IMG/VR virus record: IMGVR_UViG_3300033149_001989
Coordinates: 62,001-126,000 of that record
Length of the DNA: 64,000 nucleotides
Strand: one strand, 5' to 3'
From: a virus
The notes beneath the pieces were generated by a model that saw only the letters and a program-made list of their open reading frames with translations, was not told the DNA's origin and ran no database searches. Of this stretch, positions 22,372 through 44,454 are shown piece after piece. The translations under genes were made by a program, and so were the position numbers. The number at the start of each line of letters is the position of its first letter. Positions within the stretch are counted from its first letter, which is position 1.

Positions 22372-23499
22372 ATGAATGATAATAATTTAGCCAAAAAACT
22401 ATTTGGTAAAGATTACCAAGAATTCACTGAGCAAGACCCATTTAATCCGATGAACAGCCTATCAGGATTCATATCTCGCAAATCCAATGAATACTATGGT
22501 GCACTACTAATTACTAAAATCAACGGTAAAACTACAGAACAGCTTATTATGGGTACACCCAAAATGCACTACCCATTTACCACAAGACAAGATGGTTCAC
22601 GCAAATATGAGTTTCCTATAGCTAAGAACGTAGAGGTTTATGAGAAATTAGATGGTACTAATATTCTTACCTACACCTATAAACATAATGGCAAAGATTA
22701 TATCACATTTAAGACACGTCTCCGCCCCTTCGTAGCATCAGGGCGATTTGGTAATTTCTATGAGATGTGGCAAGAGGTTGGTATACCTCATATTGACCAA
22801 ATTAAAACCTTAATGGAAACCCACAAATGCAATCTTTCATTTGAGATTTATGGGGCTAGAAATCCTCACTTGATAATGTATCCTAATTCTCTAGATATAG
22901 CCCTACTCTTTGGAGTAACGAATACTGGGAGGATAATTAGTCCATCACAGTTTACAACCAGTTTACCCACCCCTCCGTTACTTGTTACCATTACTGCTGA
23001 ATATCAAACCCATTATGAAAATATACAAAAACAATTACAGGATGGGCTAAAACAAGAGGACGAGGGTTACTATTCAGGGCAAGAAGGTACCGTATGGTAT
23101 CTAACTACCATTGATGGAAGATGTGTTCAACTAAAATGTAAACCTGAAACAATAGAAGCTATCCACTTCTCGGCAGGGTGCGGTATTAATAAGAATGTGC
23201 TTCTTGCTACTTGTTGGAATGCCTTTGAGAATGTTGACAAATTGACGGTGGACTTTATCAAACAACTTTTGCTTGAGGAGTTTCCGCAACACGTTGTAGA
23301 AGCTAACCATGCTCTCATTCAGAAGTCCATCGCATTCGTTGAGGCTGAAGCAGAGTTTCGCCAAAAAGTAATTGAGAAATATAGAGTGTTTGGTAAAAAC
23401 ATCTTGTTGGATAAGGTAAAGGTTATGCGTCATATGTCGCAACTCTTTAACAAGAAAGATATGAGAAAGGTTCATAGCATAATAACCAACTTAGTATAG
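22372..23499 (+). CDS. RNA ligase (nucleotidyltransferase superfamily)
   Basis: 375 aa. Motif I EKLDGTN with nucleophile Lys at 92, motif III SFEIYG near 156-161, motif IV EGTVW at 238-242, motif V QLKCK at 253-257: the ordered signatures of ATP-dependent RNA ligases of the T4 Rnl2-like/phage type. C-terminal 110 residues are helical. Would seal 5'-phosphate/3'-OH nicks in RNA. Placed directly upstream of the CCA-adding enzyme, which fits tRNA repair (inference). Confidence 0.88.
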   Translation: MNDNNLAKKLFGKDYQEFTEQDPFNPMNSLSGFISRKSNEYYGALLITKINGKTTEQLIMGTPKMHYPFTTRQDGSRKYEFPIAKNVEVYEKLDGTNILTYTYKHNGKDYITFKTRLRPFVASGRFGNFYEMWQEVGIPHIDQIKTLMETHKCNLSFEIYGARNPHLIMYPNSLDIALLFGVTNTGRIISPSQFTTSLPTPPLLVTITAEYQTHYENIQKQLQDGLKQEDEGYYSGQEGTVWYLTTIDGRCVQLKCKPETIEAIHFSAGCGINKNVLLATCWNAFENVDKLTVDFIKQLLLEEFPQHVVEANHALIQKSIAFVEAEAEFRQKVIEKYRVFGKNILLDKVKVMRHMSQLFNKKDMRKVHSIITNLV

Positions 23500-23532: not shown

Positions 23533-23571
23533 ATGAAAATAAATGTCGTTAAAGATTCAAGAGTGGAATAA
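23533..23571 (+). other. Short leader ORF overlapping the start of the CCA enzyme
   Basis: GGTGG lies properly before ATG 23533, which encodes 12 residues, whereas the CCA enzyme ATG at 23543 lies 10 bases inside in another frame. Suggests coupled or reduced translation of the enzyme; alternatively the annotated enzyme start is wrong and initiation is elsewhere. Confidence 0.3.
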
Positions 23572-24937
23572 AAAATACTTACTAAAGGAGCTAACTAGAA
23601 AGTTCAATGAGAAAGGCTTTAACCTGTACTTAGTAGGTGGTTTTGTTAGAGACACTATTATGGGTAGAGAAACACACGATATAGATATGACTACAGATGC
23701 TCTCCCCCAAGATACTAAAGAAATTCTTGAAGAGCTTGGTAGTATTTATACAGTAGGTAAAGAGTTTGGAACTATTGGATTAAACTTGGATGGACAAACA
23801 ATAGAAGTAACTACTTTTAGAAAAGAGGTCTATCCTACAGAAAGTAGAAAACCTATTGTTGAGTGGGGGACTTCTTTGGTTGATGACTTAGCAAGACGTG
23901 ACTTTACTATTAACAGTATAGCCAGAAACGAACTCACGGGCGAAATAATTGACCCTTTTGGTGGAATAGAGGATATAAGGAAGAAAGTTGTTAGAGTGGT
24001 CGGTAGCAACGATAGATTTAACGAAGACCCGTTAAGGATGCTTCGTGCAATTCGTCTTGCCTGTGAACTTAATTTCAAACTACACATCAATATTTCTCAC
24101 CCAGAAAGAATCAAGATAGTATCAAAAGAGAGAGTTCGTGATGAGCTAGTTAAGATACTACTTTCAAGAAAACCAACATTTGGTATTAGAAAGTTGTGCA
24201 AGATTGGTTTGATGCAATATATTATACCAGAATTTGTGGAACTAAAGAATGTGGCACAAGGTAAAAATCATATTAAAGATGCCTTCGAGCACTCCTTGCT
24301 GGTTCTTTACAAGGGTTCTCACATAGACCATAACGAGAGAAATCTTGCATTTCGTCTTGCCTGCTTACTACATGATATTGGTAAATCAGATACTAAGATA
24401 ATTGATGATGATGGTGTACACTTTTATGGTCACCACTCAGTTGGTGCCAGAAAAGTAAGAAAAATACTATGCAGGTTGCATTTCGACAGTAATATTGTTG
24501 AAGACGTTGCTATGCTAGTAAAGTATCATATGACACCAATTATGCTTCAAAGAGAAATAGTCAAGGGCAAGATAAAGAAGAGAATAATTATGAGGCTTGT
24601 CCGTAGGGTCGGGGTAAGTAATATTTATCTCCTGCTTGACCTTGTAAAATGCGATATACGCTCTTCGAAGAATCCAAGATATAAATTTGTGACTATCCTT
24701 ACTAGGTTGGTAAACGAATGTATGGCAGAGAAACCAGAAACTCTAGTCTCTCCAATAGATGGTCACGAGATTATGAAAGAATTTAATCTTAAACCAGGTG
24801 TATTCATAGGTGAAGTTAAGAACTATCTCACTAATTTAGTAATAGATGGTAAGTTAAAGAAGGGGGATAGAGAAGGTGCCTATGCCGAGGCTAGGAGATA
24901 CATCTACAACAAAAGACGAAAAGTTGGAGTTGCTTAA
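23543..24937 (+). CDS. cca: CCA-adding tRNA nucleotidyltransferase
   Basis: 464 aa, full class II length. Nucleotidyltransferase head: LVGGFVRD near 30-37, DIDMTTDA near 46-53 (two metal-binding Asp), TTFRKE near 90-95. Then RRDFTINS at 118-125 and EDPLRMLR at 161-168, as in the nucleotide-selecting neck. An HD domain (LLHDIGK, His/Asp at 277-278) follows. Adds or repairs the 3' CCA of tRNAs. Eleven of the 27 complete tRNA genes in this window lack an encoded CCA, giving it direct substrates. Poly(A) polymerase activity cannot be excluded from sequence. Confidence 0.93.
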   Translation: MSLKIQEWNKKYLLKELTRKFNEKGFNLYLVGGFVRDTIMGRETHDIDMTTDALPQDTKEILEELGSIYTVGKEFGTIGLNLDGQTIEVTTFRKEVYPTESRKPIVEWGTSLVDDLARRDFTINSIARNELTGEIIDPFGGIEDIRKKVVRVVGSNDRFNEDPLRMLRAIRLACELNFKLHINISHPERIKIVSKERVRDELVKILLSRKPTFGIRKLCKIGLMQYIIPEFVELKNVAQGKNHIKDAFEHSLLVLYKGSHIDHNERNLAFRLACLLHDIGKSDTKIIDDDGVHFYGHHSVGARKVRKILCRLHFDSNIVEDVAMLVKYHMTPIMLQREIVKGKIKKRIIMRLVRRVGVSNIYLLLDLVKCDIRSSKNPRYKFVTILTRLVNECMAEKPETLVSPIDGHEIMKEFNLKPGVFIGEVKNYLTNLVIDGKLKKGDREGAYAEARRYIYNKRRKVGVA

Positions 24938-26449: not shown

Positions 26450-26472
26450 TAAATAACATTTAGGCAAAATAA

Positions 26473-26500
26473 AAACCCAGAGAAATCTGGGTTTCTTTTT
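26473..26500. terminator. Bidirectional intrinsic terminator at the convergent junction
   Basis: Stem AAACCCAG / CTGGGTTT with a 6-base loop, followed by CTTTTT on the + strand; on the - strand the same stem is followed by TTATTTT. It lies between the last rightward gene and the last leftward gene. Confidence 0.9.
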
Positions 26501-26508: not shown

Positions 26509-26898
26509 TTATAAAGCAGAACTTAGTATTAAAATTACTTCTTCCTTTTCAACATCATTAAGAGGACGACATTCAATTCCTCTACAATGGGATATTACAT
26601 CTTCTTCTGGTTGCAATTCATAATGTCCCGTTACAACACCATCACAATAAAACCTAAGATGTATTTGATAATCAGCATCCAATACCTTTCTTGTAGTAAA
26701 TACTTGTTTGCGATAGGTTGTAGACATATAGTTATATTGATGACAATTTCTAGCCAACGTATCGTATAGAGGTTTAATATCAACGGGTATTGGTATATGA
26801 CAAATATAAAAATCCTCCCTTCTCTCTTGGAGCCCACAAAAAAATATTCTAAACTGTCTTGTAAATCTAACAAGATTATATAAATAATTCATAGCCAC
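26509..26898 (-). CDS. Hypothetical phage protein
   Basis: 129 aa, start ATG 26898 or 26892. Aromatic and Arg/Tyr-rich, mixed alpha/beta; no recognised motif. Last gene of the leftward unit, between RNase P RNA and the terminator. Confidence 0.55.
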   Translation of the reverse strand: MAMNYLYNLVRFTRQFRIFFCGLQERREDFYICHIPIPVDIKPLYDTLARNCHQYNYMSTTYRKQVFTTRKVLDADYQIHLRFYCDGVVTGHYELQPEEDVISHCRGIECRPLNDVEKEEVILILSSAL

Positions 26899-26976: not shown

Positions 26977-27356
26977 AATTGCAAGCAAGCCCGTAAGCGG
27001 GATTCTGTTTTATGTGAACATTTATCTTGGTTCAATGTTACCATTAAACTCTTTGCCACCCACCCGAAAGCTAGCCGAGCACATCATTGCTTTCTGCTTG
27101 GTGTTGCACCAGATGGAGTTTACCTCTCCTACTTACCTTAAACAAGTCTTGTTAGAACTATTTTTGGTCGTAAGTTTTTATAGTCCCACACACGTCACCC
27201 TGCCCAGTTATCCGTTTACACATAAACTTCGTGGTAGAGATAAGTAGGAGTTTAGCACTTGTCGTCAGGTTACCCTGCCAGGGTGTTACCCTGCATCCTG
27301 CTCGGTGGTGTCCCGACTTTCCTCCCCGTAGGGCGTCCACTCAGCTTGCTCACAAT
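26977..27356 (-). ncRNA. rnpB: Bacterial-type RNase P RNA
   Basis: On the - strand, GGGGAGGAAAGTC near 27325 is followed by GCAGGATGCAGGGTAAC, CAGGGTAACCTGACGAC and AAGTGC: the CR-I/P4 and P10/11 core of bacterial RNase P RNA in the canonical order and spacing. Further on come GGTAAACTCCA (near 27115) and GCAACACCAAG. The 3' end has ACAGAATCCCGCTTA, the CR-V/P4 3' strand. The ends pair as P1 (ATTGTGAGCAAGC with GCTTGCTTGCAAT). About 380 nt. Processes tRNA 5' ends; lies directly downstream of the tRNA array on the same strand. No RNase P protein gene is seen in the window. Confidence 0.97.
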
Positions 27357-27582
27357 CTCTTTTGTATACTGTCCTCCCGTAATTTATCCGATTCCAGATT
27401 CTTTCAAATCCAAAATGTAACCCGAAACAAATACCCTCAACAACAAGGGCTAACCCCAAAGCAATTTTAAGGTCAGGAATAAAGAAGGAAAATATAAGAG
27501 TATCTATTGCTATTTCAATTGCTCTAAACGAAATCGCTTTTGCTAGTGACCGCTTCTTTGTTTCGTGTACTTTTAATTCCAA
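27286..27582 (-). CDS. DUF2061-type small membrane protein
   Basis: 98 aa. 'KRSLAKAISFRAIEIAIDTLI' and 'LKIALGLALVVEG...FERIWNRI' are the two membrane helices and the ERIWNRI end of DUF2061. Family members normally stop soon after that motif; here 30 extra residues are read through the 5' part of the RNase P RNA gene, so the C-terminus overlaps rnpB by about 70 bases. A lost stop codon or a frameshift near 27380 is likely. Confidence 0.7.
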   Translation of the reverse strand: MELKVHETKKRSLAKAISFRAIEIAIDTLIFSFFIPDLKIALGLALVVEGICFGLHFGFERIWNRINYGRTVYKRDCEQAEWTPYGEESRDTTEQDAG

Positions 27583-27594: not shown

Positions 27595-27682
27595 TGGCGG
27601 AGGGGGAGGGATTCGAACCCTCGGTGGTTTGACCCACGTCAGTTTTCAAGACTGCTCCTTTAATCCGCTCAGGCACCCCTCC
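27595..27682 (-). tRNA. tRNA-Ser(UGA)
   Basis: Acceptor GGAGGGG/CCCCTCC, anticodon loop CTTGAAA, long variable arm (GTGGGTCAAACCAC), T-loop TTCGAAT, encoded GCCA end. 88 nt. Confidence 0.95.
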
Positions 27683-27761
27683 TATAGTAATATCCCAACC
27701 TGTACTCTTTGTCATAACTTTTATTGGACAACTCTCCGATATTTACCTATCCTATTTTTTA

Positions 27762-28445
27762 TCACAGTAAACTTCTTATAACTTTTTTAGTATCTGTAAC
27801 ACTATCTACCTTAATACACTTTACTCCAACTTCTTTAACCGCAAAATCATTACCGATAAATAAAATTTCCTTCTTTTTGAAGCCCTGCTCCATAATTTTT
27901 GAAATAGCGAATGCTTTATTAATACCCTTCTTAGTAATATCTATTGAAGTTGTTCCACCTATTTTTATCTCTAGACCAACAAGTAAAGCCTCAAGTCTCG
28001 CACACATTATTTTACGTTTTGAGGCATCCGCATCCCATTTACTTTTTAATTCAAGTGGTGCATTCCGACCTAACGCTGAGAACGTTATTTGTGTTCCTCT
28101 ATCCTCTATAATATCCCCGTAAGAATTCCCCCAAGAAATATCAATACCAACTGAGGCTGTTTCTAACGCTCTATAGATTTTATTCTTAACATTTTCGTTT
28201 AGGTTATCTTCATAAATACATTTGTAATGCCCATCGTACATCTTAGAACCGTTTGTGGGAAATAGCATCAATTTATCGTGTTCAATAGTTAACTGAGAAA
28301 TAAATTGTTTTATATCACCACCAGAAATAACTGCCACAAAATACTTATCAAGTAATTTATATAACAGTTCTTTCATTTCACTATCAACCAAACATTTACT
28401 TTCGGTTAATGTACCATCAAGGTCAAAAACAATTACTTTCTTCAT
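27762..28445 (-). CDS. HAD-IIB phosphatase (phosphomannomutase-like)
   Basis: 227 aa. Motif I FDLDGTLT at 7-14, motif II-like VISGGD near 39-44, 'GDIIEDRGTQITFSALGRNAP' near 109-129 as in eukaryotic-type phosphomannomutases, KGIN near 174 (motif III Lys), and FIGND near 195. The final acidic motif is short compared with PMM. Could be a sugar-phosphate phosphatase or mutase; the start follows tRNA-Gln by two bases. Confidence 0.8.
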   Translation of the reverse strand: MKKVIVFDLDGTLTESKCLVDSEMKELLYKLLDKYFVAVISGGDIKQFISQLTIEHDKLMLFPTNGSKMYDGHYKCIYEDNLNENVKNKIYRALETASVGIDISWGNSYGDIIEDRGTQITFSALGRNAPLELKSKWDADASKRKIMCARLEALLVGLEIKIGGTTSIDITKKGINKAFAISKIMEQGFKKKEILFIGNDFAVKEVGVKCIKVDSVTDTKKVIRSLL

Positions 28446-28446
28446 G

Positions 28447-28519
28447 CTGCCGAGGGTGGACTCGAACCACCAATTACAGGTTCAAAGCCTGCTGTCCTTA
28501 CCAATTAGACTACTCGGCA
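28447..28519 (-). tRNA. tRNA-Gln(UUG)
   Basis: Acceptor TGCCGAG/CTCGGCA, anticodon loop CTTTGAA, T-loop TTCGAGT. No encoded CCA (GCA follows). Confidence 0.93.
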
Positions 28520-28791
28520 TTTGTTAAGCACATAAATTTATGTTCGCAATACTTACATTTTTGTACTAGTTGTTTTGTTCTTACTTTATTTTCCCAACAT
28601 TCCCAACAAGGACGTAATTGCCTTGAATAGTTTGCATTGTGATATTTATTTGGACATAAATGGTGAACCTCATTACTAAATCCATATTTTACATCCCACT
28701 TAAAGAATTCTCTGCAAGTTAAACAGAATCCATACTTAGGATTAAAATCTTTCCATCGAGGCTGTTTCCAATTTGTTATTAAGTCATCCAT
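28510..28791 (-). CDS. HNH-like zinc protein with CRFC box
   Basis: 93 aa from ATG 28791 (upstream in-frame codons lie in a tRNA). FCLTCREFF near 23-31, then NEVHHLCPNKYHN near 41-53 and PCWECW near 62-67 give two Cys pairs around a His-His segment, as in HNH nucleases. CKYCEHKFMCLT ends the protein. Its stop codon lies inside tRNA-Gln (10-base overlap). Confidence 0.72.
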   Translation of the reverse strand: MDDLITNWKQPRWKDFNPKYGFCLTCREFFKWDVKYGFSNEVHHLCPNKYHNANYSRQLRPCWECWENKVRTKQLVQKCKYCEHKFMCLTNAE

Positions 28792-28792
28792 T

Positions 28793-28876
28793 GAGCCGCC
28801 AGCAGGACTCGAACCCGCAATGAGTTTCCTCAGCATTTTACAAGAATGCTGCACTACCAATTGTGCGATGGCGGCT
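28793..28876 (-). tRNA. tRNA-Thr(UGU) with a long variable arm
   Basis: Acceptor AGCCGCC/GGCGGCT, anticodon stem-loop GCATT-CTTGTAA-AATGC, T-loop TTCGAGT. Variable region of 14 nt folding TGAG-GAAA-CTCA, unexpected for Thr. No CCA. Confidence 0.85.
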
Positions 28877-28984
28877 AATAACTTTTACCTCGACGTATCT
28901 TTGACACCGATAGTTTTTCCGCCTTCTCTATTTTTGGATTTATATGATACACAATCAAATGGTTCAAGCAATATCATTTCATTT

Positions 28985-29060
28985 TGGTGGGGGTAGGGGG
29001 ATTCGAACCCCCACTGACAGATTGAAGGTCTGTCATCCTAGCCTTTTAGATTATACCCCC
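28985..29060 (-). tRNA. tRNA-Glu(UUC) with C33
   Basis: Acceptor GGGGGTA/TACCCCC, anticodon arm ACAGA-CCTTCAA-TCTGT, so position 33 is C rather than U. Encoded ACCA. Confidence 0.9.
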
Positions 29061-29237
29061 ATTTTTCTCAAACCATTTTTTAAGTTCTTTGACATTACCT
29101 GCTAAACTATTTAGATACTTTACTACATTACCAAGTTCAGTAATTGCTTCATTCAAATGTTTTTCACAGTCCTTTGTTCTCTCTTTCCCCAACTCCAAAT
29201 TCATTTGTTCTAACGTAATATCATCAAATTCACCCAT
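29046..29237 (-). CDS. Small acidic coiled-coil protein
   Basis: 63 aa from ATG 29237 (GAGG six bases upstream; codons further upstream lie in a tRNA-like gene). Heptad pattern LEQMNLELGKERTKDCEKH. Stop TAA is inside tRNA-Glu. Unknown. Confidence 0.55.
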   Translation of the reverse strand: MGEFDDITLEQMNLELGKERTKDCEKHLNEAITELGNVVKYLNSLAGNVKELKKWFEKNGGII

Positions 29238-29262
29238 TTCAACCTCAACGCAAGTTACTATC

Positions 29263-29323
29263 TGGTCTGGGTGGTTGAATTCGAACCAACGACCTCCTGG
29301 CTCTGTCACTAACGTACACCCAG
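29263..29323 (-). tRNA. Truncated tRNA lacking the anticodon loop
   Basis: 61 nt. Acceptor CTGGGTG/CACCCAG, D-arm-like TACGTTAGTGACAGAGC, then CAGGA and directly a variable loop and T-arm TTGG-TTCGAAT-TCAA with ACCA end. The anticodon loop and 3' half of its stem (about 12 nt) are missing, so it cannot decode. Confidence 0.7.
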
Positions 29324-29324
29324 A

Positions 29325-29400
29325 TGGTCAGGGTGGGAGAATTTGAATCTCCTCTAAATGCTCCCAAAGCACTTGTGCTACCGTTAAACACTACACCCTG
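29325..29400 (-). tRNA. tRNA-Pro(UGG)
   Basis: Acceptor CAGGGTG/CACCCTG, anticodon arm AGTGC-TTTGGGA-GCATT, encoded ACCA. Separated from the truncated tRNA by one base. Confidence 0.93.
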
Positions 29401-29434
29401 TACATTCCGATTACCTAACACATATTCCTCTTCT

Positions 29435-30034
29435 TTAATAATCAATTACTATTGGTTTGTTAACCAAATGATAACATTCATTGACCACCGAAGCGTTTAT
29501 AAATCTAGTTTCACGATTATACTTCTCTCCATACGCTTCGTGAATATGACCAAAAACGTGAAATTGCGGTTTAATTTCCCTTACCTTGTCCAATAATGAT
29601 TGCGAACCAGCACAAACGTTCCCAATTGTTCTATCCAAGAATCCCCTTGGTGGCGAGTGAGTTATCAAAATATCCGTTCCTCTTGGTATCTGTTCCCACA
29701 TCTTTGCAAGTTCTTTTTCACCAGTCATAAAAGCCCAAGCACCAAATTTAGGGCTAAACGGGGAAGCCCAAACCTTTATTCCTTTAAACTTTAGCGGCTC
29801 GTTTATCAAGGTTATTGCATTCTTTAATTGCCTATCTCTCGTAACAAACCTGAAATCGTGGTTACCTGGTGTAAAGATTATATAATTAAATGGCAACGTT
29901 CCCAACCAAGCATCAAACATATCAACTTCCTCATCATTGCCCATCATGGTGGCATCACCAGCGTGGATTAAAACATCACCTTCTGGTAACTCTGGTGTTA
30001 ACCCATGTGTATCTGATATAATTACTAATCTCAT
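29435..30034 (-). CDS. Calcineurin-like metallophosphoesterase
   Basis: 199 aa. Metal motifs in order: SDTHG near 7-11, HAGDAT near 24-29, GNHDFR near 57-62, THSPP near 124-128, GHIHEAYG near 161-168. Compact single-domain form resembling MPPED/YfcE-type enzymes that hydrolyse phosphodiesters. Sits among tRNA genes; substrate could be a nucleotide or RNA end. Confidence 0.9.
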   Translation of the reverse strand: MRLVIISDTHGLTPELPEGDVLIHAGDATMMGNDEEVDMFDAWLGTLPFNYIIFTPGNHDFRFVTRDRQLKNAITLINEPLKFKGIKVWASPFSPKFGAWAFMTGEKELAKMWEQIPRGTDILITHSPPRGFLDRTIGNVCAGSQSLLDKVREIKPQFHVFGHIHEAYGEKYNRETRFINASVVNECYHLVNKPIVIDY

Positions 30035-30108
30035 TGGTGGAGGTTACGAGACTCGAACTCGTCTTAATGCCTTGCAAGGGCATTGTTCTCCCGCTGAACT
30101 AAACCCCC
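30035..30108 (-). tRNA. tRNA-Ala(UGC)
   Basis: Acceptor GGGGGTT/AACCTCC, anticodon arm ATGCC-CTTGCAA-GGCAT, encoded ACCA. Confidence 0.94.
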
Positions 30109-30111
30109 TTT

Positions 30112-30206
30112 ATTTAATATCTCTTCCCAAGTCAAACCGAGATTACGCATACACCAATGTACTGCCTTGTGGCAAATACCACATTTGTGCGTCAGTTATA
30201 CTATAA
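30112..30206 (-). pseudogene. Zinc-finger gene remnant
   Basis: A frame reads LTHKCGICHKAVHWCMRNLG and a helical TWEEILN before running into tRNA-Ala. A stop precedes it and no start codon is available. Resembles a small HNH-associated zinc module that has lost its N-terminus. Confidence 0.4.
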
Positions 30207-30214
30207 TCATCCAT

Positions 30215-30306
30215 TGGTGGGAGAGGTAGGACTTGAACCTACAACGTTTACCCTGTGGGTGGGAGTTTTACAGACTCCTGCCTTCACCAATTCGGCTCAC
30301 TCTCCC
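30215..30306 (-). tRNA. tRNA-Tyr(GUA)
   Basis: Acceptor GGGAGAG/CTCTCCC, anticodon loop CTGTAAA, long variable arm as expected for bacterial Tyr, encoded ACCA. 92 nt. Confidence 0.95.
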
Positions 30307-30352
30307 TAATGTTCCCAAATTGAGGTGGTTTAAATTCTTTAGAGCTACCTCT

Positions 30353-30487
30353 CAGGGTTTTCAGCAGACCATCTACCTTCCACAGCGGATACAGCACCAT
30401 GATGATTGCCGTTCACTCAAACTGGTTAGATTTTCCCGCACCTGCCCCTAGCTACGGCTAGTTAGGTGTATCTGCTTACTAACCCTG
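30353..30487 (-). ncRNA. Candidate structured RNA between tRNA-Leu and tRNA-Tyr
   Basis: No ORF. The ends pair: AACCCTG (30481-30487) with CAGGGTT (30353-30359), then TCTGCT (30471-30476) with AGCAGA (30363-30368), giving a 13-bp interrupted closing stem. Inside, CACCT...AGGTG encloses CTAGC-CGTA-GCTAG, and a second pair GGTAGAT/ATCTAACC-like is possible. It abuts the 3' end of tRNA-Leu(UAA), so it would be released by tRNA processing. Not tmRNA (no tRNA-like end) and not recognisable as SRP or 6S. Confidence 0.55.
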
Positions 30488-30562
30488 TGTCGGTGATGAG
30501 ATTCGAACTCACACTGAGTAGATTTTAAGTCTACTACCTCTGCCAAATTGGGTTACACCGAC
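30488..30562 (-). tRNA. tRNA-Leu(UAA) without long variable arm
   Basis: Acceptor GTCGGTG/CACCGAC, anticodon arm GTAGA-CTTAAAA-TCTAC, variable loop only TCAGT (5 nt), T-loop TTCGAAT. No encoded CCA. Confidence 0.9.
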
Positions 30563-30895
30563 TTAATCCAACCAACCTTTCAGGTATCGTGACTTTCTAA
30601 TTGCCAAATCAACTTCTGCAAACTGGTCAATCACATCTAGCATCTGACGTGCTTCTCTAATAGGAATATAACCCCAATGCCTTCGAGGATTACCGCACAC
30701 ACAACAAGAACAGGGAACTCTGGTTTTTCTATAAATTCCTAGAAATCTCTCAATTTCATAATCTGTAAACTTGTACCTTGTACCAGATTGTTTTTTATTT
30801 CTAGGATTAAACCCGTGCCATTTCTTGAAAACTTTGGTGGCTACCTTATTGGCAATGACTAATCTATTTCCACGCACGAAACCTCCGTTGCTCAA
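30563..30895 (-). CDS. Conserved phage zinc protein (CSCxxCGNPRR)
   Basis: 110 aa. 'PCSCCVCGNPRRHWG' near 61-75 is a signature of small phage proteins seen near tRNA clusters; it holds a CxCxxC cluster that could bind zinc. Arg/Lys-rich N-terminus. Ends directly at tRNA-Leu(UAA). Function unknown. Confidence 0.7.
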   Translation of the reverse strand: MSNGGFVRGNRLVIANKVATKVFKKWHGFNPRNKKQSGTRYKFTDYEIERFLGIYRKTRVPCSCCVCGNPRRHWGYIPIREARQMLDVIDQFAEVDLAIRKSRYLKGWLD

Positions 30896-30928
30896 TCTAC
30901 ATATTTATCGCTATCACCTCAGTTGGCT

Positions 30929-31007
30929 TGGCGGGAGTGGAAGGACTTGAACCCTCATTACCTCGTTTTGGAGACGAATATTTTTTATCCAATTAAACTA
31001 CACTCCC
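30929..31007 (-). tRNA. tRNA-Trp(CCA)
   Basis: Acceptor GGGAGTG/CACTCCC, anticodon arm TTCGT-CTCCAAA-ACGAG, encoded GCCA. Confidence 0.93.
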
Positions 31008-31014
31008 TTAATAG

Positions 31015-31088
31015 TACCCAGGGAGAGATTCGAACTCTCAAAATCTCGCTTTTGAGGCGAACACGTCTACCAATTGCGTCACCTGGGC
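31015..31088 (-). tRNA. tRNA-Leu(CAA) without long variable arm
   Basis: Acceptor GCCCAGG/CCTGGGT, Leu-type D-arm (GTGACGCAATTGGTAGACG), anticodon loop CTCAAAA, variable loop ATTTT only. No CCA. The D-arm is typical of class II Leu tRNAs, so the long arm has been lost. Confidence 0.9.
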
Positions 31089-31127
31089 TTATAGGTTTTT
31101 TCGTTCACAATATATGATATAAGACTT

Positions 31128-31214
31128 TTATTTATCGCACAACAGGGTATATGACACCCCACACCTTCTTGCTAATCTAATTTCCTCGGCTTGTTCTTCG
31201 ATATTCTTCTTCAT
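31128..31214 (-). CDS. 28-aa peptide
   Basis: ATG 31214, charged helix (KKNIEEQAEEIRLARRCG) resembling the first helix of an HTH. No good ribosome site; may be a gene remnant. Confidence 0.3.
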   Translation of the reverse strand: MKKNIEEQAEEIRLARRCGVSYTLLCDK

Positions 31215-31244
31215 TATGACAAGGTATAATCACTACCGCATCTG

Positions 31245-31317
31245 AGCGGGTGATGGGTTTCGAACCCACTACCTTCTGGACGGCAACCAAACGTTCATCC
31301 AAATGAACTTCACCCGC
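31245..31317 (-). tRNA. tRNA-Gly(GCC)
   Basis: Acceptor GCGGGTG/CACCCGC, anticodon arm TTTGG-TTGCCGT-CCAGA, T-loop TTCGAAA. No CCA (TCA follows). Confidence 0.88.
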
Positions 31318-31512
31318 TTATTTCTTTTTCCACTTTATGTTTGCTCTCAAGAATTCAAACCAAGTGTCAAAATTTACATAATGCACAACTTCTTTGTTTT
31401 GTGTATAGCAAGAAAACCTGATAGGACAACACTCACAACCCCTCTGAACATTCTACTGTGAAGGGGTATATTCCTGCTAATGCTTTATCCCTGTATCAAT
31501 GTATAATTCCAT
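31318..31512 (-). pseudogene. CRFC-box gene broken by two frameshifts
   Basis: ATG 31512 opens MELYIDTGIK; a second frame gives ALAGIYPFTVECSEG; a third gives CECCPIRFSCYT, then VNFDTWFEFLRAN and a stop touching tRNA-Gly. Joining the three yields a coherent protein of about 64 aa with the box in the middle. Confidence 0.55.
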
Positions 31513-31521
31513 TATTCCATT

Positions 31522-31596
31522 TGGGGTGAGCGGTGGGTATCGAACCCACTTCAAGAGGGTCACAACCTCTTATTCTGCTTTTGAACTACGCCCACC
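31522..31596 (-). tRNA. tRNA-His(GUG)
   Basis: Extra G-1 opposite C73 as expected for His; acceptor GTGGGCG/CGCTCAC, anticodon arm AGAGG-TTGTGAC-CCTCT, encoded CCA. Confidence 0.95.
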
Positions 31597-31793
31597 ATTT
31601 CTACCAGCGAATGTCTCAATCTGACTATTACAGTTTGGGCAGAGAGGTCTCAAGTTCTCTAGTCTAGAATTGTCTCTTACACCGTTTTTATGGTCAAGAA
31701 TAAGAACCATAGGTTTGCCTTGCCAAATAGGTTCTAATCCACAAATTGCACATTAGATAATTGCTATATCTTACTTCTTTTCCTACGTTTCAT
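31570..31793 (-). pseudogene. HNH endonuclease remnant
   Basis: A frame from 31752 reads CAICGLEPIWQGKP, LILDHKNG, NRLENLRPLCPNCNSQ and TFAGRN: a near-complete HNH zinc nuclease C-terminus. A stop directly precedes it. The only upstream ATG (31793) is in another frame, and the downstream end runs into tRNA-His. At least one frameshift; probably a dead homing-type nuclease. Confidence 0.65.
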
Positions 31794-31798
31794 ACTTA

Positions 31799-32296
31799 TC
31801 ACACCAAAATTTTAGTAAACGTTAGCTGACTGGGTAAGGGTATCTTATATGTAAACCACGCTGTTGCAAACCAAGGTATTTGCTTACCAGACGGTATTTC
31901 GAACTTTACTCTCTTATTCATCAAAAGAAGACTAATCCCATATCGTGAGAATAATTCCTGTCTTGCTTCCGATTCCAAAGCCGTTAAAGGAAGAAGTAAA
32001 GCGAATGGTTTACCAAGACTGTAACATCGCTCCAGCACTCTTGTCTTAATGGAGTAAGGTGGATTACTGACAATGGCATCAAAGTTATCGGGACATTTAG
32101 TCAAACAGTCATAATTAGTACCAATAACCTTAAATCCTTTCTCACGCAAAACAGTAGTAACATTACCAGTAGCTTCCGAAAGTTCCCAAATAGTCCACAC
32201 CTTATTCAGGTAAGGAATTAGTGGTTCCACCGCATAATTAGGAGTATATACTTCATCCTGTTTTTTGTTATGTAATAATCTAAGTTTACTATCCAT
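31799..32296 (-). CDS. NPPY-type methyltransferase-like protein
   Basis: 165 aa. SAM-binding ELSEATGNVTTVL near 38-50 and catalytic NPPYS near 77-81 with 'FDAIVS' before it; no target-recognition domain. Resembles short phage adenine N6-methyltransferases or the N-half of rRNA methylases. Could act on DNA or RNA. Confidence 0.75.
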   Translation of the reverse strand: MDSKLRLLHNKKQDEVYTPNYAVEPLIPYLNKVWTIWELSEATGNVTTVLREKGFKVIGTNYDCLTKCPDNFDAIVSNPPYSIKTRVLERCYSLGKPFALLLPLTALESEARQELFSRYGISLLLMNKRVKFEIPSGKQIPWFATAWFTYKIPLPSQLTFTKILV

Positions 32297-32344
32297 AGTT
32301 TTTTCGTCTTACTCTACAATACTTTTTATCTTCTTTCATATTAA

Positions 32345-32373
32345 ATAGTACCACGTGCCCGACAAAAAGTCAA
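32345..32373 (-). promoter_or_regulatory. Sigma-70-type promoter (leftward)
   Basis: On the - strand TTGACT (32373-32368), 17 bases with GGGCACGTGG, TACTAT (32350-32345). Upstream of the NPPY methylase. Confidence 0.65.
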
Positions 32374-32393
32374 GTACATCCTTTCAGCCGAAA

Positions 32394-32470
32394 TGGTGGA
32401 GATAACAGGATTCGAACCTGTACTAAATTGGTTCTTAGCCAATTGCCTCTACCAATTGGGCTATATCTCC
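32394..32470 (-). tRNA. tRNA-Leu(AAG) without long variable arm
   Basis: Acceptor GGAGATA/TATCTCC, anticodon arm ATTGG-CTAAGAA-CCAAT giving AAG (A34, rare in bacteria outside Arg), variable loop TTAGT, encoded ACCA. Confidence 0.85.
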
Positions 32471-32513
32471 AGAGTGGTCACTAAAATAAAAACTTTATGC
32501 TTCAATATATCAA

Positions 32514-32588
32514 TGGTTCCCAAGTGAGGATTCGAACCTCAAATTCAACGTTCAGAGCGTTACGTCCTACCTGTTAGACTACTTGGGA
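32514..32588 (-). tRNA. tRNA-Gln(CUG)
   Basis: Acceptor TCCCAAG/CTTGGGA, anticodon loop CTCTGAA, T-loop TTCGAAT, encoded ACCA. Confidence 0.92.
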
Positions 32589-32593
32589 ATAAT

Positions 32594-32650
32594 TGGTTGC
32601 GGTAACTGGGATTCGAACCATCGGTTAACAGCCGAGTCTATTATACCGCA
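32594..32650 (-). tRNA. Minimal Asn(GUU)-like tRNA missing D-arm
   Basis: 57 nt. Acceptor TGCGGTA/TACCGCA with ACCA end and anticodon arm TCGG-CTGTTAA-CCGA intact, but only TAATAGA replaces the D-arm and the variable loop is absent. A normal tRNA-Asn exists at 33631, so this copy is redundant: either decayed or an armless tRNA. Confidence 0.65.
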
Positions 32651-32690
32651 AAATATTCTTTCCTTTACAATCTATTACGTTCGGCAGGAA

Positions 32691-33209
32691 TTAGATTTGT
32701 CCAGTACTAAACTTTTCTAACATTTCTTTTTGTTCGTCAGTTAAAGCTTTTGGTAGAACTACCCTTAAAATAAAGTAGTATTTATTATTACCATCTTGTA
32801 CATGTATTATTTGTCCATTTTGGGACAATTCTGGTATTTTTAAAGAAATTTTTTTACCAATATCAACAACCTTCACCCCACCAAGAATCATTGTTAACCA
32901 GTCCACTGGGATTTCTATCTGAACAGTTCTGACAGTATACCCACTACCCCAACGGGCAAAAACATCATCAAATGGATTACTAAAATTAAACTCCCTGTAA
33001 AATATATCAAACGGGTTTATATTTTGCCTATGTTTTAGTCGCTTCGTTAACCCCTCGTAGGCTTCGTTGATTTCTTTGAACCTATTCTCTGCTTCGATAG
33101 ATTTATTCACATCAGGATGCCACTTTCGTGCTAACCTACGATATGCCTTCTTAATCTCATCAAGTGAGGCATTTCTGTTTACCCCTAGTATCTTATAGTA
33201 ATCCTTCAT
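32691..33209 (-). CDS. DnaJ-like co-chaperone (J-domain)
   Basis: 172 aa. J-domain 1-70: [30 protein letters not shown] with the HPD triad near 31-33, [11 protein letters not shown]. The second half resembles one client-binding domain of CbpA/DnaJ type B ([29 protein letters not shown]). No zinc domain. Would recruit host DnaK, a known phage strategy for replication or assembly. Confidence 0.9.
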
Positions 33210-33235
33210 ATTTCCCTCATAATACGTGGATTTGC

Positions 33236-33628
33236 TTATGAGACAAACCTAGTTATAGCCCTCCCCTTTAATATATTCACTAACGTAGGAAAAGGAATAT
33301 GCTTTGCTCCTGGCAAATCATAAAGCATCATTTTAGCACCAGCATAATTTAGGGTGTGTATTATAATTTGCTTACTTCTTATATTATTATCAGCGATATA
33401 TTTAGCTACCCACCACCCAGTATTGGGGTCAAGTGAATCTACATAAACCTTTCCACCCAAGTCGTGGTCTAGAAACATAATATCAAAGTCATTTTCATTC
33501 TTTAAGATTTCAATTGCTGTATCTCTGGAGTCCGCCACAAAAATCACAGATTCATTAATCACGTCTTTCAACAGTCTCAACAGAGTGTTTTGTCGTTCTA
33601 CCATATCATCTAAGATAAATATTTTCAT
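33236..33628 (-). CDS. Receiver-like protein of the cyclic-phosphate-processing (cREC) type
   Basis: 130 aa from ATG 33628; codons upstream lie in tRNA-Asn. '[18 protein letters not shown]' plus '[12 protein letters not shown]' near 63-74 and '[12 protein letters not shown]' near 87-98 are typical of receiver folds in which the HDxGG loop replaces the phospho-acceptor surroundings. Such domains were predicted by others to process cyclic phosphates in RNA-repair operons. Placement inside a tRNA array supports an RNA-end role, which remains inference. Confidence 0.65.
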
Positions 33629-33630
33629 TT

Positions 33631-33707
33631 TGGCTCTGGTGGCTAGGCTCGAACTAGCATATTTCTCCTTAACAGGGAGGTTCATTACCTTATTATGATA
33701 CACCAGA
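33631..33707 (-). tRNA. tRNA-Asn(GUU)
   Basis: Acceptor TCTGGTG/CACCAGA, anticodon arm CTCC-CTGTTAA-GGAG, T-loop TTCGAGC, encoded GCCA. Confidence 0.93.
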
Positions 33708-33711
33708 ATCG

Positions 33712-33786
33712 AGGCACGGGTGGGAATTGAATCCACGTATGCGGTCTTGCAAACCGCCGCCTAAACCTAACTCGGACCACCGTGCC
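33712..33786 (-). tRNA. tRNA-Cys(GCA)
   Basis: Acceptor GGCACGG/CCGTGCC, anticodon arm GCGGT-TTGCAAG-ACCGC, T-loop TTCAATT. No CCA. Confidence 0.92.
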
Positions 33787-33828
33787 ACTTTCTTCATTTT
33801 ATCTTTATACGGTATTTATTTTTCTATG

Positions 33829-33903
33829 CCCCCCGTAGCGGACTTGAACCGCTAATCTCTCTGCTCGACAGGCAGGTATTTTAGCCGATTAAACTAACGA
33901 GGG
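33829..33903 (-). tRNA. tRNA-Asp(GUC)
   Basis: Acceptor CCCTCGT/ACGGGGG (one U-G), anticodon loop CTGTCGA, T-loop TTCAAGT. No CCA (GCA). Confidence 0.9.
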
Positions 33904-33929
33904 ATGTTGCTCAACCAACACTAATGACC

Positions 33930-34313
33930 TTATTTCTCTTTTCTATAAAGAGTACCTTCTATATTAACTGTATTAGGAAACTTGACCCACGCATATTTCA
34001 CAAAAACTTTTCTTTCATCCGTTGGAAACAATTTAGCATATGGAAAACCATGGTCATCAAACCAGGCACCACCATCATTCAAATGCTTTAACAGCCCTAA
34101 TCTTAAACATTTTGGAACAACAAATTTAGCTTCAAAGTAATACCAGCTACACTGCTGATATTTTCTGTCTATTTCAAGTTTGAAATTTACAGGGTCAACG
34201 TTGATTATATTACTAGTGAAACATTCAAATCTATGAATACAATTCTCGCAATCACTTGGAATATTCCACTTTCTTTTTAATGTAACATCACAAATGCTGA
34301 TTCGCAGTTCCAT
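33930..34313 (-). CDS. Hypothetical protein with CRFC box
   Basis: 127 aa. CENCIHRFECFT near 22-33, then a domain with several Trp/Tyr and a KCLRLGLLKHLNDGGAWFDD segment. The C-terminal half is beta-rich and basic. Flanked by tRNA-Asp and tRNA-Leu. Function unknown. Confidence 0.72.
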   Translation of the reverse strand: MELRISICDVTLKRKWNIPSDCENCIHRFECFTSNIINVDPVNFKLEIDRKYQQCSWYYFEAKFVVPKCLRLGLLKHLNDGGAWFDDHGFPYAKLFPTDERKVFVKYAWVKFPNTVNIEGTLYRKEK

Positions 34314-34317
34314 ATTT

Positions 34318-34397
34318 TGGTGCTGGTAGCAAGATTCGAACTTGCAACATTTCGGGTCTAAGCCGAACGCCTCTGCCTTTGTTTGGGCTATACCAGC
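34318..34397 (-). tRNA. tRNA-Leu(UAG) without long variable arm
   Basis: Acceptor GCTGGTA/TACCAGC, anticodon arm TTCGG-CTTAGAC-CCGAA, variable loop ATGTT, encoded ACCA. Confidence 0.9.
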
Positions 34398-34454
34398 AAT
34401 ATGCGGGGAGGCTTATAACGAATTAGTGACTTGCTCCCCAATTTGTGTCCTCCC

Positions 34455-34536
34455 GACCCACCGACGAGATTTGAACTCGTATTTTCAGTTCCATTTACGG
34501 CTAAGAGTTTAGGAAACTCCCCCGACTACGGCGGGT
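34455..34536 (-). tRNA. Aberrant tRNA-like gene, possibly Arg(CCU)
   Basis: Acceptor ACCCGCC/GGTGGGT and T-arm ACGAG-TTCAAAT-CTCGT are intact. The best anticodon arm is GGAGT-TTCCTAA-ACTCT (CCU), leaving no normal D-arm (GTAGTCGG only) and an extra 23-nt insertion between anticodon and T arms. No CCA. May be non-functional. Confidence 0.5.
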
Positions 34537-34778
34537 TATCTAGTCCAACAAGCAAATCTTAGCGGACACTGGTTACACTGTTTATCTAAGTCATCAAAGT
34601 TTATTCTCTTCTTTGCTATTTTATAATAACTTTTCCTACCAGTAAAATACCACCGACAAGATAGAACATAATTATTACAATACTTACAAACAAGGTCACC
34701 AGTACTAATTGGTCTAGTATCTCTATCTGTTTCCTGTATTGTTAAAAACTTGCCACAATACTCGCAATAATAATACAT
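34536..34778 (-). CDS. Zinc-ribbon protein ending in a CRFC box
   Basis: 80 aa from ATG 34778, which overlaps the upstream stop (TAATG). Two knuckles, CEYC at 4-7 and CKYC at 31-34, form a zinc ribbon; CNQCPLRFACWT plus one Arg ends the protein. The stop meets the aberrant tRNA gene. Confidence 0.75.
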   Translation of the reverse strand: MYYYCEYCGKFLTIQETDRDTRPISTGDLVCKYCNNYVLSCRWYFTGRKSYYKIAKKRINFDDLDKQCNQCPLRFACWTR

Positions 34779-34993
34779 TATCTTGTCCAACATTCGTAGC
34801 GATTTTTACATTTTTCACAAATTTTTGGTCGCTTCGTTTGTGGAACTTCAACAACTTTGATATTATCTAATGCCTTGCCACCAACGCAGTTAGACGAATA
34901 TAAGCACAACTCAAGGTTATAAATATTCATCCAACCTTCCCCCAACTTTTCATCCCATCTTACTTTAAATATCTTTTCATACATAATTGGCAC
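34778..34993 (-). CDS. Small protein ending in a CRFC box
   Basis: 71 aa. Beta-rich N-terminal half with one Cys pair (LCLYSSNC), then CEKCKNRYECWT and a final Arg. Ends in the same C-W-T-R as its downstream neighbour, showing the box as an exact C-terminal cap in two adjacent genes. Confidence 0.72.
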   Translation of the reverse strand: MPIMYEKIFKVRWDEKLGEGWMNIYNLELCLYSSNCVGGKALDNIKVVEVPQTKRPKICEKCKNRYECWTR

Positions 34994-35062
34994 CCCCGAT
35001 AGGACTCGAACCTACATATCATCGGGTAGAAGCCGATTGCTGTTCCATTCAGCTACGGGGGC
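34988..35062 (-). tRNA. tRNA-Arg(UCU)
   Basis: Acceptor GCCCCCG/CGGGGGT, anticodon arm ATCGG-CTTCTAC-CCGAT, T-loop TTCGAGT, encoded GCCA. Its 3' end overlaps the next CDS start by a few bases. Confidence 0.93.
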
Positions 35063-35111
35063 AACTATCGTTTTGGACACTATCACAAAGTTCTTTTTCA
35101 TTTATACATAT

Positions 35112-35191
35112 TGGACCCCCTAGCGGGACTCGAACCCACAACTAACCGAAGTTCGTAGCTTCGTGCTCTAAATCCATTGAGCTATAGGGGG
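35112..35191 (-). tRNA. tRNA-Arg(ACG)
   Basis: Acceptor CCCCCTA/TAGGGGG, anticodon arm CGAAG-CTACGAA-CTTCG, T-loop TTCGAGT, encoded TCCA. A34 here is the usual inosine site. Confidence 0.93.
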
Positions 35192-35227
35192 TAATGTGTT
35201 CTATTTATTCTTTACAAACCTAACATG

Positions 35228-35301
35228 TAGGTGCGAAGGGAGTCGAACCCTTACTGCCCTGCTTAAGAGGCAGGTATTCTAACCAATTGAACTACGCACC
35301 C
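35228..35301 (-). tRNA. tRNA-Lys(CUU)
   Basis: Acceptor GGGTGCG/CGCACCT, anticodon loop CTCTTAA, T-loop TTCGACT. No CCA. Confidence 0.92.
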
Positions 35302-35328
35302 GCTAATCATACCCATTAATCTCATCTG

Positions 35329-35418
35329 TAGGCGTGGTAGGAATCGAACCTACTCCTTGGGTATATCAGACCCTAAACGGCTTATAAGACCGCTGCTCAT
35401 CCATAGAGCTTCACGCCC
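35329..35418 (-). tRNA. tRNA-Ile(UAU) with a long variable arm
   Basis: Acceptor GGGCGTG/CACGCCT, D-stem GCTC/GAGC, anticodon arm GCGGT-CTTATAA-GCCGT, variable region over 20 nt with stem GGGT/ACCC, T-loop TTCGATT. No CCA. An Ile tRNA of class II shape is unexpected. Confidence 0.85.
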
Positions 35419-35419
35419 A

Positions 35420-35818
35420 TTATTTCCATCCTTTTATGTGATGAATTGGTTTTGCCCGCTTCTTGCAACAAACCATACCTTTATCATTCAAATACAATAA
35501 TTCACTATTTTTAAAAAAGAAGGTTTCGTGCTGCTTTCCGTGATATTTAATCCTATAAAATCTCCCACCCTCTTGCACCATCGCATATTGAATTATTCTA
35601 CCTCTAACATCACCAAATGCTCTCAGTTCCAAATCGTGGTCTACGTACGTAGTTATTGTTTGGTTTTGCCATACATCATCATTTAAAATACTAGAATCTA
35701 AGATGCCAGCCCAACAATTAAAACGTATCTTACATAAATCACAATTACCAAAACAATAAAAGGCAAAATCATCTAGCATAATAAATTTTGGTTCGTTTGG
35801 TTTTATTGTCTCATTCAT
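35420..35818 (-). CDS. Hypothetical protein with CRFC box
   Basis: 132 aa. 'MLDDFAFYCFGNCDLCKIRFNCWAG' places the box near 26-37; the remainder is beta-rich with a basic Cys-containing end (CCKKRAKP). ATG overlaps the stop of the 33-aa peptide upstream, so the two are translated together from the 35975 promoter. Confidence 0.72.
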   Translation of the reverse strand: MNETIKPNEPKFIMLDDFAFYCFGNCDLCKIRFNCWAGILDSSILNDDVWQNQTITTYVDHDLELRAFGDVRGRIIQYAMVQEGGRFYRIKYHGKQHETFFFKNSELLYLNDKGMVCCKKRAKPIHHIKGWK

Positions 35819-35912
35819 ATGGTAGCCTGGGGTATGCGGCTGCGGCGTCGCCGATACCGATAGCGACGGTGATGGGGTGCCCGACTGTAATGACGGGTGT
35901 GCACTCAGTCAT
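35811..35912 (-). CDS. 33-aa peptide with strongly G/C-rich codons
   Basis: ATG 35912, GAGAG upstream, 35 bases after a consensus promoter. Codons are far richer in G/C (many GCC, ATC, GTC, CCC) than any neighbour. Peptide is hydrophobic/Ala-rich with 'VAIGIGDAAAAYPRLP'. Stop overlaps the next gene's ATG. Looks acquired from another genome; could be a leader or precursor peptide. Confidence 0.5.
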   Translation of the reverse strand: MTECTPVITVGHPITVAIGIGDAAAAYPRLPYE

Positions 35913-35946
35913 AGTAAAGTCTCTCTACTTTCCATCCCACAATAAC

Positions 35947-35975
35947 ATCCTATCATATGCCCACCGAAATGTCAA
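35947..35975 (-). promoter_or_regulatory. Sigma-70-type promoter (leftward)
   Basis: TTGACA (35975-35970), 17 bases with GGGCATATGA, TAGGAT (35952-35947). Spacer matches the GGCATATG pattern of the + strand promoters. Confidence 0.8.
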
Positions 35976-35985
35976 GTATTATTTC

Positions 35986-36076
35986 TGGCGGAGAGGGAGA
36001 GATTCGAACTCTCGGAAGCCTGGCTAACTTCAGACGGTTAGCAACCACCCACAATAAACCACTCTGCCACCTCTCC
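35986..36076 (-). tRNA. tRNA-Ser(GCU)
   Basis: Acceptor GGAGAGG/CCTCTCC, anticodon loop TTGCTAA, long variable arm, T-loop TTCGAAT, encoded GCCA. 91 nt. Confidence 0.93.
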
Positions 36077-36077
36077 G

Positions 36078-36150
36078 TCCAAGCGGAAGGATTCGAACCT
36101 TCATCCTCCTGCATATCAGACAGGTGCCCCACCAGTTGAGCCACGCTTGG
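36078..36150 (-). tRNA. tRNA-Ile(GAU)
   Basis: Acceptor CCAAGCG/CGCTTGG, anticodon arm CCTGT-CTGATAT-GCAGG, T-loop TTCGAAT. No CCA; one base from tRNA-Ser. Confidence 0.93.
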
Positions 36151-36247
36151 TTCTAAGTCTTAGCTGTTTATGAGTTTCATTACAATCTTTACATCTACAA
36201 TCAGTAGCCGTACCATACGGCATCCCAATTGAATACTTTTCACTCAT
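36116..36247 (-). CDS. Small CRCKDC protein running into tRNA-Ile
   Basis: 43 aa from ATG 36247 with AAGG upstream. 'GTATDCRCKDCNETHK' is the pattern of small phage or intron-associated zinc motifs. The stop is inside tRNA-Ile; the natural end may have been overwritten. Confidence 0.45.
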   Translation of the reverse strand: MSEKYSIGMPYGTATDCRCKDCNETHKQLRLRTKRGSTGGAPV

Positions 36248-36256
36248 ATTTGACCT

Positions 36257-36285
36257 TTATGAAAAATCCCTACTTTTGTAGGGAT
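36257..36285 (-). terminator. Intrinsic terminator (leftward)
   Basis: - strand AATCCCTAC-AAAA-GTAGGGATT followed by TTTC: a 9-bp perfect stem and U-rich tail, downstream of the 36325 gene. Confidence 0.85.
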
Positions 36286-36324
36286 TAATGTGCATATACA
36301 TATTAAACTAAATATTAATCCCCA

Positions 36325-36537
36325 TTACGTTGAATTCCATATCAACAAGTTACTATCTTCAAAATGTTTCCTAAGTTTCGGGTCGGCTATCGGGAACAAC
36401 ATTTCATTACTTCTATAAAATATCTTGTCACACTGGTCACAATAATAAACTATGGCACCACCACACCTCACGTTTGACGTGAATATTTCGTTCCCGCAGG
36501 AACACTTAATTGATAATTGTCCCATTAGTTCTATCAT
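36325..36537 (-). CDS. Zinc-ribbon protein
   Basis: 70 aa. CSCG near 12-15 and CDQC near 33-36 with an intervening C-G-G; classic two-knuckle ribbon. Transcribed alone between the 36598 promoter and the 36257 terminator, so probably independently regulated. Function unknown. Confidence 0.65.
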   Translation of the reverse strand: MIELMGQLSIKCSCGNEIFTSNVRCGGAIVYYCDQCDKIFYRSNEMLFPIADPKLRKHFEDSNLLIWNST

Positions 36538-36569
36538 TTTATTTACAGTTTTTCCATCATTACACTTAT

Positions 36570-36598
36570 ATTATACCATACAAATCGCTAGTTGTCAA
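36570..36598 (-). promoter_or_regulatory. Sigma-70-type promoter (leftward)
   Basis: TTGACA (36598-36593), 17 bases with TTTGTATGG, TATAAT (36575-36570); extended -10 TATGG. Drives the 36325 gene. Confidence 0.88.
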
Positions 36599-36619
36599 GC
36601 CCCAACGACACACTTTTTC

Positions 36620-36780: not shown

Positions 36781-36830
36781 ATCACCTATAGTTTAATAAC
36801 GAATTTTTATTCAATTCCTCACCCTCTTTG

Positions 36831-44413: not shown

Positions 44414-44454
44414 ATAAACCTCTTTTGTCGGTTCATAATTACCATTATTATACG

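Follow-up and report, generated by a model that had tools for sequence, protein, structure and literature searches.

The window analysed here is a stretch of 64,000 nucleotides of viral DNA (bases 62001-126000 of a 133,760-bp IMG/VR record, G000), and coordinates refer to it unless another record is named. Its minus strand carries a gene for RNase P RNA, a molecule regarded as a cellular housekeeping ribozyme. The gene matches the Rfam model of bacterial class A RNase P RNA (RF00010, RNaseP_bact_a) over model positions 1-367 of 367 with 176 bits (E 4e-55; gathering score 100 bits), and it is the single RF00010 match in the whole record. The RNA also folds more stably than dinucleotide shuffles (z -3.0). 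The original prediction had placed an RNase P RNA at 26977-27356, citing CR-I, P10/11, CR-V and complementary ends among its segments, and had called for a covariance search. CR-I, CR-IV (GGTAAACTCC), CR-V and the complementary ends can all be found, the search gave the full-length match, and the coordinates are correct within a few bases. Its identity as RNase P RNA and its location in a phage are close to certain.

Table 1. Features of the RNase P RNA gene and its surroundings in the window
Feature	Position	Strand	Evidence
RNA ligase-like protein, possible tRNA repair	22372-23499	+	Pfam RNA_ligase 3.4e-4, below gathering score; phrog_562 3.6e-6
CCA-adding enzyme (tRNA nucleotidyltransferase)	23543-24937	+	Pfam PolyA_pol 8e-35, RNA-binding and HD domains
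Terminator-like hairpin downstream of RNase P RNA	26471-26496	-	Pattern match only
Gene for a class A-derived RNase P RNA (375 nt)	26978-27352	-	RF00010
CR-V, P4 3' strand, ACAGAAUCCCGCUUA	26994-27008	-	Sequence, counted pairing
L15 GGGU motif	27062-27065	-	Aligned with E. coli GGU
CR-IV, GGUAAACUCC (also given as GGTAAACTCC)	27115-27124	-	Sequence, alignment
130-nt segment in place of the T-loop recognition module (CR-II, CR-III, P12-P14)	27125-27254	-	
Closing stem, 3' arm, TAAGTAGGAG	27126-27135	-	MFE fold; identical in G002
Closing stem, 5' arm, CTCCTACTTA	27241-27250	-	MFE fold; identical in G002
CR-I, P4 5' strand with bulged U, GAGGAAAGUCGGGA	27311-27324	-	Sequence; pairs with CR-V
Array of 25 tRNA genes with small ORFs between	27595-36908	-	ARAGORN and Rfam agree
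cREC (cyclic-phosphate-processing receiver)-like ORF within the array	33236-33736	-	PF20274 1.3e-12; homologs L051, L052
Candidate sigma-70 promoter into the array, TTGACA-17-TATAAT, TG before -10	36570-36598	-	Pattern match only, 12/12
26th tRNA gene, Gly(UCC), outside the array	44454-44526	-	ARAGORN

The RNase P RNA gene lies at the end of the tRNA array, and all 26 tRNA genes of the window share its strand. CCA is encoded in 15 of the 26 and missing from 11, exactly the number given in the original prediction; its picture of a same-strand array beside the RNA also stands, but its count of about 30 tRNAs falls to 26, with 25 in the array. Phe and Met tRNAs are not among the 26 listed. Two genes just beyond the RNA had been overlooked, the CCA-adding enzyme and, next to it, the weak RNA-ligase match. 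The former scores 1.7e-98 against NCBIfam TIGR02692, yet below the model cut-off, and occurs in five relatives at 61-70% identity; the latter has no match in the PDB. The cREC-like ORF as annotated overlaps tRNA genes, so its start probably lies further in. As had been stated before, no rnpA gene is found: RnpA (PF00825) is absent from the whole 133,760-bp record and from 12 other virus records, while control genomes matched. An ORF at 26509-26898 was considered as a hidden RnpA and rejected, as it matched no family and lacks homologs in the relatives.

Several smaller features of the window were recorded alongside. A 98-aa ORF (27286-27582, minus strand) overlaps the RNase P RNA gene by 67 nt, in its 5' part, and has homologs in L052 (67%) and L030 (57%). 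Bacterial tRNA-Leu has a long variable arm as a rule. The four tRNA-Leu genes of the array, with anticodons UAA (30487-30562), CAA (31014-31088), AAG (32394-32470) and UAG (34318-34397), have short class I variable loops, and long variable arms are found in Thr(UGU) (28793-28875) and Ile(UAU) (35328-35418); identity changes among these Leu, Thr and Ile tRNAs are possible. Three protein-coding genes carry inteins or homing elements: a DruA-like protein (40879-42924, minus strand) with an intein and LAGLIDADG, a uracil-DNA glycosylase (12971-14476, plus strand) with an intein, and a metallophosphoesterase (45916-47664, minus strand) with LAGLIDADG.

The record encodes phage-type proteins, with matches to ribonucleotide reductase, portal (2.8e-7), tail (2e-7) and, weakly, terminase (1.6e-4). 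The window also encodes PolA, DnaB and RecA, and ribosomal protein S12 is absent from the record. Three more IMG/VR records (G001, G002 and G017) have this terminase at 72-81% identity, and the closest annotated phage terminase is just 22-25% identical. The record belongs to a phage lineage with no near relative in the annotated records that were searched. In a tree of RNase P RNAs, the phage sequences form a separate, long-branched clade, placed near Fibrobacterota (0.87) with lopsided sampling. The sole genome match of the RNA is a genuine Fibrobacteria rnpB. A host assignment from the RNA was rejected and no host is claimed, given the lopsided sampling.

The catalytic domain is preserved in detail. 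With the C-domain and P7-P9 aligned across four related phages (G000-G003), the 44 pairs counted in P4, P5, P7-P9, P15, P16 and P18 are standard in all 176 of 176 cells, and 12 of the 44 have changed on both sides. None of 500 shuffles equalled the observed pairing and double changes, and when the pairing partners were shifted one to three columns apart, only 29-46% still paired; these figures are strong, though with four mutually related sequences they carry no formal probability. Every pair of P5, P7-P9, P15, P16 and P18 is standard in the four phages, and the window RNA has CR-IV. P4 is unbracketed in the Rfam structure line, and its pairing was therefore tested separately from the RF00010 score. 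A failure of P4, CR-I and CR-V to fold, raised beforehand as a point against the identification, did not occur: CR-I and CR-V form P4 with a bulged U through 8 of 8 pairs in the window RNA. P4 is the most telling helix. In the relatives, it consists of AAG(U)CCGAA with UUCGGCUU, and in the window of AAG(U)CGGGA with UCCCGCUU. The window thus differs by two double compensatory substitutions, which are among the 12 pairs changed on both sides, with every pair kept across ~300 nt. The catalytic half is under selection in G000-G003.

The specificity domain, by comparison, is no longer whole. CR-II, CR-III, P12, P13 and P14 are absent from the window RNA and from that of G002, as judged by sequence and alignment; CR-II (ACAGAGA) and CR-III (GUGAAA) are retained in G001 and G003. 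The CR-II/CR-III region touches the tRNA D- and T-loops (PMC4919922). The replacement segments of the window and G002 have the same two flanks, starting with TAAACTCCTACTTATCTCTACCACGA and finishing with TAAGTAGGAGA, and their ends form a long stem in the MFE fold, with TAAACTCC on both sides. Since CR-II and CR-III are missing, the end-to-end RF00010 match conceals a replaced module, and what had been described as RNase P RNA is real, in a phage and beside a tRNA array, yet as a class A RNA it is incomplete. Because CR-II/CR-III, P12, P13 and P14 are lacking, the best place for the window RNA is as a phage variant of class A RNase P RNA whose specificity module has been replaced, rather than as a standard member of the class. 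With bacterial class A RNase P RNA (rnpB, RF00010) it shares the C-domain helices, CR-I, CR-IV, CR-V, the P4 bulged U and the L15 GGU; it differs in being phage-encoded, in having a stem-loop for CR-II/CR-III and P12-P14, and in the inversion of one P4 pair.

The loop of the G002 segment contains an HNH endonuclease gene (L044:1650-2153, minus strand; PF01844 6e-6). This recalls HNH homing endonuclease genes that reside in conserved RNA genes; the window insert has the same ends but is unlike the HNH gene in sequence. The 93 nt of the window insert show no detectable similarity to that gene, and a remnant of it was rejected because the alignment score equalled that of shuffles. The likeliest history, we infer, is that a homing element seized the module and that the window lineage later lost or replaced this element.

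In the relatives, the RNA gene again lies among tRNA genes (G001, 152.8 kb; G002, 138.6 kb; G003, 54.7 kb). A tRNA adjoins its 3' end directly in G003 and after a single base in G001, so that cutting the 5' end of the tRNA would itself create the 3' end of the RNase P RNA in these two phages. RF00010 has no match in G016 and G017, though both have the tRNA array and the CCA-adding enzyme, which indicates that the RNA is dispensable in this lineage. At the equivalent site of G017, only the two P1 halves are left, fused in a deletion scar (L052:13559-13594, minus strand), indicating that the ancestor of G003 and G017 had the gene and that it was lost at least once.

RNase P RNA had been described as almost always a host gene; the window case is real but no isolated oddity, as one of many viral RNase P RNAs. 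These came from two pattern scans of IMG/VR with Rfam follow-up, in which small contigs were treated as possible host DNA; a first, too strict pattern gave no matches, and PolA as a marker in viral contigs found nothing. The RNA lies in tRNA arrays of G005 (369 kb) and its sisters G006 and L117 (340 kb), and of L105 (168 kb), L108 (68.5 kb), L118 (385 kb), L104/L111 and L103. In the array of L115 (191 kb) it spans 207 nt only, and in L110 (101 kb) a tRNA lies 7 nt away on either side; viral RNase P RNAs are sometimes 0-7 nt from one or both adjoining tRNAs. The records of G005, L105, L108, L115, L117 and L118 contain a terminase, and S12 occurs in 0 of 24 records, the window record included. 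Copies of the RNA occur in several unrelated large phages, often with the same parts removed or rebuilt. Two records with EF-Tu nearby and no terminase match, G004 (L067, 372 kb) and G007 (L068, 497 kb), were left out of the viral count as doubtful phages. L067 and L068 have an identical RNase P RNA, and L067 carries EF-Tu and TnpB genes within ~10 kb. Within the large phage tRNA arrays, the RNA stands alongside tmRNA in L103 and L105 and GOLLD RNA in L118.

Minimal forms of 200-250 nt occur in L103:12072-12271, L106:4771-5017, L112:6801-7033 and L114:11172-11418. They lack CR-II/CR-III, are 57-68% alike pairwise and score 60-71 bits, under the RF00010 gathering score; they have probably been overlooked by standard annotation. 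In L103, L106 and L114, the T-loop module is lost and P4 pairing is kept. Mu-like phages with transposase, terminase, portal and tape measure form another group, from four metagenomes and one isolate genome (L036, L070/L071, L021/L072, L015, L018, L011), in which the portal and tape-measure genes flank a full RNase P RNA. No tRNA genes were found in the Mu-like loci scanned.

The RNA probably matures the phage tRNAs together with the host RnpA, which is assumed here because RnpA was not found in the record. The L15 GGU of class A RNAs is the pairing partner of the tRNA 3' CCA. In the proposed sequence of events, the RNA would probably be transcribed together with the tRNA array and, after infection, would bind host RnpA and cut phage pre-tRNAs at their 5' leaders. 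Completion of the 3' ends would fall to the phage CCA-adding enzyme, also in the 11 tRNAs whose genes lack CCA. Substrates may be bound through the acceptor stem, the CCA (by the L15 GGU) and the 5' leader (by RnpA) rather than through the T-loop. The original prediction had suggested autonomous tRNA maturation; the CCA-adding enzyme strengthens the maturation part, and "autonomous" is too strong, as RnpA and the 3'-end nucleases would be the host's. Counted in favour of tRNA maturation are the RF00010 score, the 44-pair covariation, the P4 double substitutions, the shared terminase, the CCA-adding enzyme, the position among tRNAs, the precedents for cleavage with a reduced S-domain and the absence of RnpA from 13 virus records. 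Counted against it are the missing CR-II/CR-III in the window and G002, the dispensability shown by G016/G017, and Mu-like RNase P RNAs for which no nearby tRNA array was found.

Loss of the S-domain need not mean a dead RNA, since the C-domain alone cleaves pre-tRNA, with reduced rate and affinity (PMC4919922), and since the Pyrobaculum RNase P RNA nearly lacks an S-domain and is described as functional in the account of Lai et al. 2010 given in PMC4919922. The Pyrobaculum RNA of that account is archaeal and works with archaeal proteins, and the window RNA retains P7-P9 and gains a 130-nt stem-loop segment. The main rival explanation nevertheless holds that the gene is a decaying relic, in which an insertion, perhaps the HNH homing element, ruined the specificity module, and that it is vanishing as in G017. 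The lost T-loop module of G000 and G002, the HNH gene in the middle of the G002 RNA, the G017 scar and the absence of the gene from G016 all fit such decay. Every counted C-domain pair is nonetheless intact in the window and G002, the compensatory P4 changes are specific to the window, and P4 still pairs in L103, L106 and L114, where the module is gone. The compensatory changes weaken this explanation, and it appears unlikely.

A further explanation is that the RNA serves as a decoy or takeover RNA, binding host RnpA or competing with host RNase P RNA and so shifting host RNA processing. The Mu-like phages suit this idea, with their full-length RNA between structural genes and no tRNA genes in the loci searched; the window and most other cases, however, lie in tRNA arrays, the CCA-adding enzyme adjoins in the window and the catalytic core is conserved, making a decoy quite improbable. 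Last, the possibility that the contig represents a piece of host chromosome, as also raised at the outset, or a chimaera, with an ordinary host rnpB, is already contradicted and has a negligible chance of being right: contamination is real elsewhere, and inspected annotated matches in phage records (e.g. MW495066) sit amid bacterial genes, but this record has RNR, portal, tail and weak terminase matches, shares its terminase with three further virus records, lacks S12, resembles G001-G003 in arrangement and places its RNA in a long-branched clade of its own.

Beyond tRNA maturation, one pair of P4 stands out across the viral RNAs. In 30 of 30 RNase P RNAs taken as cellular, a narrow sample of mostly Fibrobacterota and gamma-proteobacterial-type sequences, the pair in second place after the P4 bulge is C-G, and the CR-I/CR-V letters at this pair are conserved, upper-case letters of the Rfam consensus. 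The pair is G-C in the window, L104/L111, L105, L106, L108, L114, L117 and L118, and also, read by eye, in L103; L112 is mismatched there. The inversion arose at least twice, since G000 differs from canonical G001-G003, and L117 from G005/G006, with which it is syntenic and which are both canonical at this pair. Tentatively, and with some doubt, phages may have repeatedly captured and remade the host RNA, dropping or replacing the module (down to ~200 nt), inverting the P4 pair and setting the gene between tRNAs for release by tRNA processing, with the recurring inversion being adaptive. An adaptive inversion would, for example, separate phage and host ribozymes or evade some agent aimed at the conserved core. 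Through its recurrence, the inversion amounts to a natural experiment on the helix of the active site.

The surroundings of the gene resemble the translation genes of huge phages (Al-Shayeb et al. 2020, PMC7162821), with which the window shares tRNA arrays, a CCA-adding enzyme and tRNA repair or ligation genes. That survey names tRNAs, synthetases, CCA-adding enzymes, EF-Tu and factors, and its main text does not mention RNase P (PMC7162821). A full-text search, with preprints and most subscription papers outside its scope, found no paper on a phage-encoded RNase P RNA, and priority is not proven. If a viral RNase P RNA is under selection, the control that phages have over translation would reach back to the first step in the maturation of tRNAs. 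Natural bacterial-type RNase P RNAs without T-loop recognition also provide material for testing the purpose of the specificity domain, and the IMG/VR cases are already enough for comparative work.

In blastn comparisons with annotated phage records, the window RNA had no match and no genuine phage case was found. Matches of the other RNase P RNAs, mostly to records flanked by bacterial genes, such as MW495066 and CAKLQF020000022, or to unannotated faecal clones, were discarded. The first of these, MW495066.1 (L060), is named 'Microcystis phage MaAM05' and contains fliM, fabI, glyS, engB and an unannotated rnpB; judging by its gene content, it is probably a mislabelled bacterial contig.
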